In this document: piece after piece, positions 37,301 through 40,300 of the stretch
Position numbering within the stretch: the stretch's first letter is position 1
How the letters are laid out: each line of letters opens with the position of its first letter
Assembly (NCBI GenBank): GCA_026874595.1
Contig: CM049309.1
Span: 52,860,079 to 52,924,078, forward strand
From: Sipunculus nudus
Taxonomy: Eukaryota > Annelida > Sipuncula > Golfingiida > Sipunculidae
DNA length: 64,000 nt
Reading direction: 5' to 3'
Program-made: the position numbers and the translations under genes
Notes under the pieces: model-generated
The model's database searches: none
What the model was told of the DNA's origin: nothing
What the model saw: only the letters and a program-made list of their open reading frames with translations

Positions 37301-40300
37301 AACCGTGGCACAGAATCCTATGGGCTGATGTTTGTCACGCTGGTCGATGTGATGGAATTGTCTTCATATACCATCCGCACCTTCCATATACAACGGGTTT
37401 GTTGATACAAATATAACATACAGGCAAACAGAGAAAATTCATATACCATCCGCACCTTCCATAAACAACGGGTTTGTTGATACAAATATAACATACAGGC
37501 AAACAGAGAAAATACATATACCATCTGCACCTTCCATATACAACGGGTTTGTTGGTACTAATATAACATACAGGCAAACAGAGAAAATACATATACCATC
37601 CGCACCTTCCATAAACAACGGGTTTGTTGATACAAATATAACATACAGGCAAACAGAGAAAATACATATACCATCCGCACCTTCCATATACAACGGGTTT
37701 GTTGATACTAATATAACATACAGGCAAACAGAGAAAATACATATACCATCCGCACCTTCCATATACCACGGGTTGGTTGATACAAATATAACATACAGGC
37801 AAACAGAGAAAATACATATACCATCCGCACCTTCCATATACCACGGGTTGGTTGATACAAATATAACATACAGGCAAACAGAGAAAATACATATACCATC
37901 CGCACCTTCCATATACAACGAGTTGGTTGATACAAATATAACATACAGGCAAACAGAGAAAATACATATACCATCCGCACCTTCCATATGCCACAGGTTG
38001 GTTGATATAAATATAACATACAGGCAAACAGAGAAAATACATATACCATCCGCACCTTCCATATACAACAGGTTGGTTGATACAAATATAACATACAGGC
38101 AAACAGAGAAAATACATACACCAAAGGGTGTAATACTGCATTCCATTCAGGTCACTATTTAATTTTAGTTATGGTTACTATTATTTTCTCTGTTTCCCAG
38201 CCATGCGGTAATACAGTATTATTACGTTATTGTTCATTACTGTACTAGAGGAGACATTTTGCTTTTGATAAATATTTGACAAACATTTCTTGATAAAAGC
38301 CTCTACTCTTTTATGATTTGATACCTACGATGTCATATCTGATGCTTACTGAGCAATATGAACATCCAAGTATTAAACAGATAACAAATGTAATTACTAC
38401 GCGAATGATAAATTTTATTTCCTGTTATTCTACAAATACACTACTGCTTACAGTCACTTAATGTAGTAACTTCCAGAAAATCAGATACAAAAGTAACTAT
38501 TATAACCTAATTATTTTCTCAGTGGAAAGTATCTTATTGATATACTCTTTACCCTGGAAGCCGATGGTTTAAACTTTTCTCAGGCTGCTTAAAAGCATAA
38601 TAAGTATTGTTTACTATGGTGCATTACTTATCATAGTGTGATTTTAACATTGCAGCATGGGTATCCAGAGAAGCGAGAGGTGCGGCAGTTCCAGTTTACA
38701 GCATGGCCAGATCACGGAGTGCCTGATCACCCCACCCCACTCTTGTTGTTTATGAGAAGGGTCAAGTCCATGACACCCCCTGACTCAGGCTCCATGGTGG
38801 TTCATTGTAGGTAAGTCGGCACTGTATAATCTCTGTTTCCATGTGTGCATATATATTCTTGAACTGGCAGAAGTGGACCTAGCAGGTCTTCACCAAACAG
38901 ATGTTGGAGTGACATCATTTTACCGTGAATCTCTTTGAGTTCACACAAACCCTGTGGGTGTAAATTGCTCCTGTGGGGACTTTCATGCATACATGCACAT
39001 ATACACGTACCCTGATGGTGGCATGGAAACAACACAGTTATAAATTCATATGAGTGATTTTTCATGCCTTCATGCGCATTCTCGCTTACACAAACACACA
39101 TTGAAACACAGCTTTATAGCTGCACAAAGAGAACCCTGCTTTAGTATGGACACTGCCCAAGACAGGAAATGTTCCACAGAAAGTAGTATCAGCCCTCATC
39201 CTTGATGTAGACAGTATCAGAAACAGGATGTCAAGATTCATCTATCAGACAGTTTCTGATTTAACCTGTATCAAATTGTACAATGTCAGGCTGCCCTAGT
39301 AGGACCTCTATGTGAGTTAATAAGGGCTTTCTTTCTCTTAGTGTGGATGGAGGTTAAAGGTATATTCAGTGTTAAACAAACTGTATTAGGTACAATGTAG
39401 TACCTGTCATTGTGATCAAAGCACTTAAAATATACATAATTATTGACACGTACCTCTTTTTTTTCCCTAATAGTGTCTCAATAAAATACTCAGTAAAAGT
39501 CTCCATACCAGCTATTTTCCCCAACCCACCATTTATCTTATTTTCTTGATGTAATTGATGATACTTTTTAAATTTAAATAATCAAATTATGATTTTCTTG
39601 TTTTCAGCGCGGGTGTCGGCCGCACTGGTGCTTATATTGTCATTGACTCCATGCTGGAGAGAATCAAATACGAAAAGACAGTTGACATATATGGTCATGT
39701 GACGTGTCTACGAGCTCAGCGTAACTACATGGTCCAGACGGAGGATCAGTACATCTTCATACATGACGCATTGTTAGAAGCAGTCAGCAGCGGAAATACG
39801 GAAATACCCGCACGCAACCTGTATGCTCACATCCAAAAGTTAACACAGCCTGAACAGGGAGAAACTGTCACAGGCATGGAGCAGGAGTTCAAGGTCAGTA
39901 GGTCACAAGGTCATTTATGTCTGTCTCCTACAAGTACTTCATCACTTTTGTTGCTGTTACTAATATAGTCACAAGTGTATTCTGCTAAAAACATAATAAC
40001 TGATGTTTATAAAACAATGCTTTTATCCAGAAAAAAAAATGTTCTTCCCTACTTTCAAGTGAAATATATATTTTTCTAGTTAAAGAAAAATAAAACCTGT
40101 GGTTAGGGATTCTTGACACATTAAATTTGGAACTTGGTAAAACCGGAGGATGTGATTTTCAAGTATTCACAATTGATCAGTGGTGTGTTTCTAAGTAATT
40201 TCCCAAGCTGTCTTCAGTCATTGAGACATATATCCAAAATGATTGCTGTACATACATACAAGGTATGTTTTACCTGACTGGCATACCCTTAAATCTAACA

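Follow-up and report, generated by a model that had tools for sequence, protein, structure and literature searches.

The original report of a 'mirage' minisatellite, in the amphioxus Adh gene, is said to be that of Canestro 2002, and the minisatellite of the human 6-16/IFI6 gene reportedly provides several splice donors (Turri 1995). In amphioxus, mirages were described in Adh3, TnC and the globin genes BflGb6 and BflGb9, with unit lengths of 10-160 bp, and the available part of that account reports that regular splicing in lancelets is undisturbed (PMC3087553). A related study states, within its accessible text, that the Adh and troponin C mirages generate no aberrant mRNAs, and describes imperfect repeats in PGBD5 (PMC3902484); the cases that we found described as mirages in the available portions of these two sources are all cephalochordate. 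The repeat units of human 6-16/IFI6 were reported as used donors (PMC4526556). De Grassi and Ciccarelli linked internal tandem repeats at the exon-intron boundaries of human duplicated genes to new introns (PMC2812944), and a potato gene gained an intron through tandem duplication across a boundary (PMC4974935). Finally, 'suppression of splicing' was proposed for latent donors associated with in-frame stops (PMC3510495, PMC8996931).

Here we describe an exon-edge repeat of this rare and already described kind within a window of 64,000 nucleotides, the whole stretch of DNA that was analysed, from Sipunculus nudus. The window has a G+C content of 36%, and its + strand carries part of an animal LAR-type receptor tyrosine phosphatase gene with the following elements:

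about 3.8-19 kb, + strand: fibronectin-III-like exons, recognised by eye
35.5-39.9 kb, + strand: first phosphatase domain (D1)
37277..37396, + strand: D1 exon (IKCDQYWP...), 120 nt, 40 codons, phase 0-0, placed by translation and phmmer matches to PTPRS/PTPRF
38656..38810, + strand: next D1 exon (...VVHC), with the genuine acceptor AG ending at 38655, placed by phmmer match to PTPRS
40.7-44.5 kb, + strand: second phosphatase domain (D2)
near 45.6 kb, + strand: last coding exon

The D1-D2 exons, joined by hand, gave a translation of 556 residues that aligned without gaps to human PTPRS in phmmer, with bit scores of 1123.7 for PTPRS (2fh7) and 1102.2 for PTPRF (6kr4), far ahead of the next different two-domain type, PTPRA, with 623.5 bits. 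The two tandem phosphatase domains being closest to PTPRS and PTPRF, the gene was assigned to the LAR type (PTPRF/S/D); in the ectodomain the fibronectin-III-like exons were read by eye and the Ig part was checked through motif patterns alone. The exon at 37277-37396 joined to the next one matched Pfam PF00102 with an E value of 4.9e-23, and the junction between 37396 and 38656 is gapless in the human PTPRS alignment, confirming the exon boundary proposed in the preliminary description. The intron between the two D1 exons measures 1259 nt, 727 nt of which are occupied by the array detailed below:

37365..38123, + strand: minisatellite with a 75-bp unit, 10.1 copies, across exon end, donor and intron (Tandem Repeats Finder)
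37366..37440, + strand: unit 1, with the genuine exon end and donor CGG|GTTTGT, intron from 37397
37403..37405, + strand: TGA, third codon past the border, in frame for any transcript using a later donor
37441..37740, + strand: units 2-5, donors CGG|GTTTGT, unit 2 identical to unit 4
37741..37890, + strand: units 6-7, donors CGG|GTTGGT, identical to each other
37891..37965, + strand: unit 8, donor weakened to CGA|GTTGGT
37966..38115, + strand: units 9-10, donors CAG|GTTGGT, the top-scoring donors of the array
38115..38123, + strand: CATACACCA, 8/9 like CATATACCA at 37365-37373, possible birth repeats

Tandem Repeats Finder returned a score of 1371 for the array, with 96% matches and 0% indels, in line with the ten tandem copies, running from the exon end into the intron, that had been noticed beforehand. 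In register from 37366 the ten units vary at 11 of their 75 columns, and their pairwise identity averages 95.6%, compared with a per-site level of about 27% in unrelated sequence with the same composition. Unit 1 consists of the last 31 nt of the exon (37366-37396), with the ten exon-tail codons spanning 37367-37396, followed by 44 nt of intron; together with the gapless junction this bears out the claim that the array originated across the end of a coding exon.

The tandem unit spans an exon-intron boundary and many units carry a splice signal, GT being conserved in all ten, as in the amphioxus mirages, with which the array also shares near-identical units, local homogenisation and a similar unit length. 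It differs from them in the host, a LAR-type phosphatase gene, in presenting ten copies of a 5' boundary, and in the in-frame stop right after the first donor. As in 6-16/IFI6, each tandem unit offers a donor at the exon end; however, the human repeat donors are reported to be used and to produce different isoforms, whereas in the phosphatase gene the use of any later one would end in a stop. The open extension of the exon into an isoform, as it appears in the available part of the 6-16/IFI6 account, is absent from this locus, where the TGA at 37403-37405 lies in the path of nine out of nine later donors. The human duplicated-gene and potato cases resemble the array in that the tandem duplication includes the exon edge and its splice signals, but new introns were reported there, while here an existing intron is lengthened. 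Like latent donors, the later copies resemble donors, lie beyond the genuine one and have an in-frame stop ahead of them; latent donors, in contrast, are mammalian and scattered, and in the array the genuine donor recurs as nine near-copies at regular spacing. A search of viral contigs, a collection hardly expected to contain animal DNA, with 18 bases of the exon tail gave 0 matches.

The donors of the array are not all alike. A G precedes the GT in nine of the ten units, and the preliminary statement that every copy bears CGG|GTTTGT or CGG|GTTGGT holds for seven of them (five and two, respectively), failing for unit 8, with its CGA|GTTGGT, and for units 9 and 10, both CAG|GTTGGT. Sixteen donors placed by hand were ranked by a position-weight score and by U1 pairing energy, the weights for donors and acceptors, like the U1 sequence, being generic ones. 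The genuine donor returned a weight score of 0.28 and a pairing energy of -6.8 kcal/mol; it had been called weak, which is correct by weight score, where it is the second weakest of the 16, but less so by U1 pairing, where it is tied fourth to fifth weakest. The donors of units 6 and 7 (1.37, -7.3 kcal/mol) and of units 9 and 10 (2.86, -8.0 kcal/mol) lie above the genuine donor on both measures, and the donor of unit 8 drops to -2.80 and -2.6 kcal/mol. Outside the array, the sole GT in this exon and intron scoring at least as high as the genuine donor by weight is at 38151. RNA structure as a mask for the later donors was ruled out, the stretch 37361-38220 being predicted to fold less stably than 20 out of 20 shuffles (z +3.85).

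Since 75 is a multiple of three, the later donors are all in frame. The use of any of them would add 75n nt and reach the TGA at 37403-37405 as codon 43 of the exon, three codons past the border; this was verified for nine of nine later donors, as had been anticipated. With the donor of unit 2 in use, the stop would lie 66 nt upstream of the junction, a distance that by the usual rule exposes the RNA to nonsense-mediated decay. Exons ending at the later donors would measure 195-795 nt, compared with 120 nt at the first donor.

Regarding the birth of the array, its flanks are the exonic CATATACCA (37365-37373) and CATACACCA (38115-38123), and minisatellites are known to start when short direct repeats slip against each other. 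Birth by slippage is a hint rather than a proof, because 685 of 63910 window positions show a match equal to the flanking repeat at a distance of 75. The identity of unit 2 with unit 4 and of unit 6 with unit 7, together with the dimers 2-3 and 4-5, which differ at 2 of 150 positions, indicates later turnover of units. Six of the 31 exon-derived columns and five of the 44 intronic ones are variable (Fisher p 0.51). When the six exon-derived changes are translated by hand in the frame of the exon, one proves silent and five would replace a residue (R to C, I to K, I to M, Q to P, R to Q); copies 2-10 therefore seem not to have been kept as coding sequence. Nine of the 11 variable columns fall in a 21-column stretch surrounding the donor (simulated p 0.0026), and 29 consecutive columns show no variation (p 0.049). 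Neither pattern is predicted by plain drift, and both were noticed post hoc.

A further feature is located downstream of the array:

38182..38200, + strand: pyrimidine tract and acceptor-like AG, with 38182-38195 the exact complement of AAACAGAGAAAATA

The AG at 38200 is the best acceptor-like site in the intron, with a score of 7.57 (99.7th percentile of the AGs in the window), and the genuine acceptor at 38655 lies below it (-0.01, 85.3rd percentile). From 38201 the exon frame runs for 15 codons before a stop. The 14-nt AAACAGAGAAAATA occurs in nine of the ten units (units 2-10), unit 1 matching 13 of the 14 positions, and the complementary tract at 38182-38195 sits 58 nt past the end of the array. 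The duplex of AAACAGAGAAAATA with the tract has a calculated energy of -20.4 kcal/mol, and in the predicted fold the tract pairs with unit 7 across all 14 bases. The chance of a 14-nt complement was estimated at 0.0008 with a Markov-1 target and 0 of 176 other stretches reach 14, but among 636 other 75-mers in the window, 13 have at least 14 complementary nt within the 692 nt that follow them. The 29 invariant columns (45-73) contain 13 of the 14 complementary bases.

On these data, the array is probably a minisatellite that was seeded across an exon edge and has since undergone neutral turnover, with splicing taking place mostly from the first donor. The founding unit, 31 nt of exon and 44 nt of intron, would have straddled the exon end by chance, perhaps when the near-repeats CATATACCA and CATACACCA slipped against each other; unequal exchange would then have driven growth and turnover of the array. 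Copy 1 would still be the working exon end; copies 2-10 are wholly intronic and do not look maintained as coding sequence. The first donor would be used nearly always, since the exon that it closes is of ordinary size and those closed by the later ones are not; long internal exons are poorly recognised. A second possible cause of its use might be that latent donors are suppressed in a frame-dependent way, as was proposed for mammalian cells, and occasional slips to a later donor would yield transcripts with an early stop, expected to be destroyed. The published mirages, reported in the available texts not to disturb regular splicing, would by analogy favour first-donor use and disfavour the alternative that the repeated donors compete with the genuine one, so that copy number sets the share of productive transcript and the extended RNA, reaching the TGA, is lost (PMC3087553, PMC3902484). 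We regard such copy-number control as unlikely, even if several observations agree with it: GT is kept throughout, the genuine donor ranks low by weight score, the TGA is in frame for every later donor and the low predicted folding leaves the donors exposed. That folding, by which the later donors are not hidden, counts against first-donor splicing, as do the higher scores of units 6, 7, 9 and 10 and the human 6-16 copies reported to act as donors, a precedent suggesting that use of a later copy is possible in principle; both of these points also agree with competition between donors. On the other hand, the best later donors would require exons of 720-795 nt, which are rarely recognised.

The remaining readings are weaker still. 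An assembly artefact, either in the array itself or in its copy number, is very doubtful: the array is known here from one sequence, and an amphioxus mirage was wrongly assembled in a draft genome according to a supplement legend, the part of that source available on this point (PMC3087553), but the window contains no N and the units bear ordered private and shared variants, as real arrays do. There is only a slender chance that the array serves as raw material, with each unit providing a 48-nt in-frame exon or with units 9 and 10 acting as joint acceptor-donor stepping sites, although the same source models how exons and introns may be gained from mirages (PMC3087553). The 48 nt from GCAAACAG to the next CGG are open when read by hand, but the acceptor that would open this exon is poor (-4.60, 49th percentile). 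As for stepping, units 9 and 10 combine acceptor scores of 4.89 and 2.51 with a donor score of 2.86, and seven of the 248 + strand AGGT sites reach the cut-offs of 2.5 and 2.8; an intron of 1259 nt, however, needs no stepping, and the exon-derived parts of the later units are not maintained as coding. An equally slim prospect is that the array acts as an antisense shield, in which the units would pair with the pyrimidine tract and hide the false acceptor at 38200, copy number would set the degree of masking and the invariant columns 45-73 would be the working part. If true, this shield would hide a site whose use would lead to a stop.

The window is rich in arrays, which favours the neutral reading: seven reach a length of about 0.5 kb or more, one of which (63295-63788) was merged from adjacent rows; one of the seven overlaps a placed exon and another begins 38 nt past one. 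Where minisatellites and exon edges are both numerous in a genome, a few overlaps of this sort would be expected. The search for further copied boundaries compared 16 hand-placed exons, each with 40 nt on either side, with the + strand of the window at E values up to 0.01; the set did not include the final coding exon, near 45.6 kb, or any unplaced exons, for example from 19 to 35.5 kb, and some upstream exon starts are guesses. Among the 16 exons tested, a copied boundary was found only at 37277-37396, the remaining matches being D1 and D2 counterpart exons to each other and an AT repeat beside one D2 exon. Several other elements of the window were recorded. A large minisatellite with 31/61-bp units at 18993-20109 starts 38 nt past a fibronectin-III-like exon, and no exon copy was found inside it. 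The (AT)73 microsatellite at 43066-43211 stops 17 nt short of a D2 exon, where the pyrimidine tract of the acceptor should be. Strong CAG|GTAAGT and CAG|GTAGGT sites, each with a good pyrimidine tract upstream, occur at 29654 and 33385, respectively, and are likely to be ends of unplaced exons, the former perhaps of a transmembrane exon, or stepping splice sites. A 46-bp tandem duplication at 21720-21811 is 100% identical, which points to a very recent origin or to homogenisation. Arrays of 272-302-bp units with 81-92% matches are located at 15794-16878, 51935-52674 and 54777-55888; the 272- and 280-bp arrays look similar in consensus and possibly form one family.

Even if it is ordinary, as we think, the array marks a spot where gene predictors and read mappers may err. 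It constitutes a natural test of how the cell settles on a single donor when ten nearly identical ones recur every 75 nt and the frame closes right after the first, and it is relevant both to how long an exon can be and to the proposed suppression of latent donors by in-frame stops. With it, a receptor phosphatase gene joins the short list of exon-edge minisatellites that we found, a possible source of new introns or exons.
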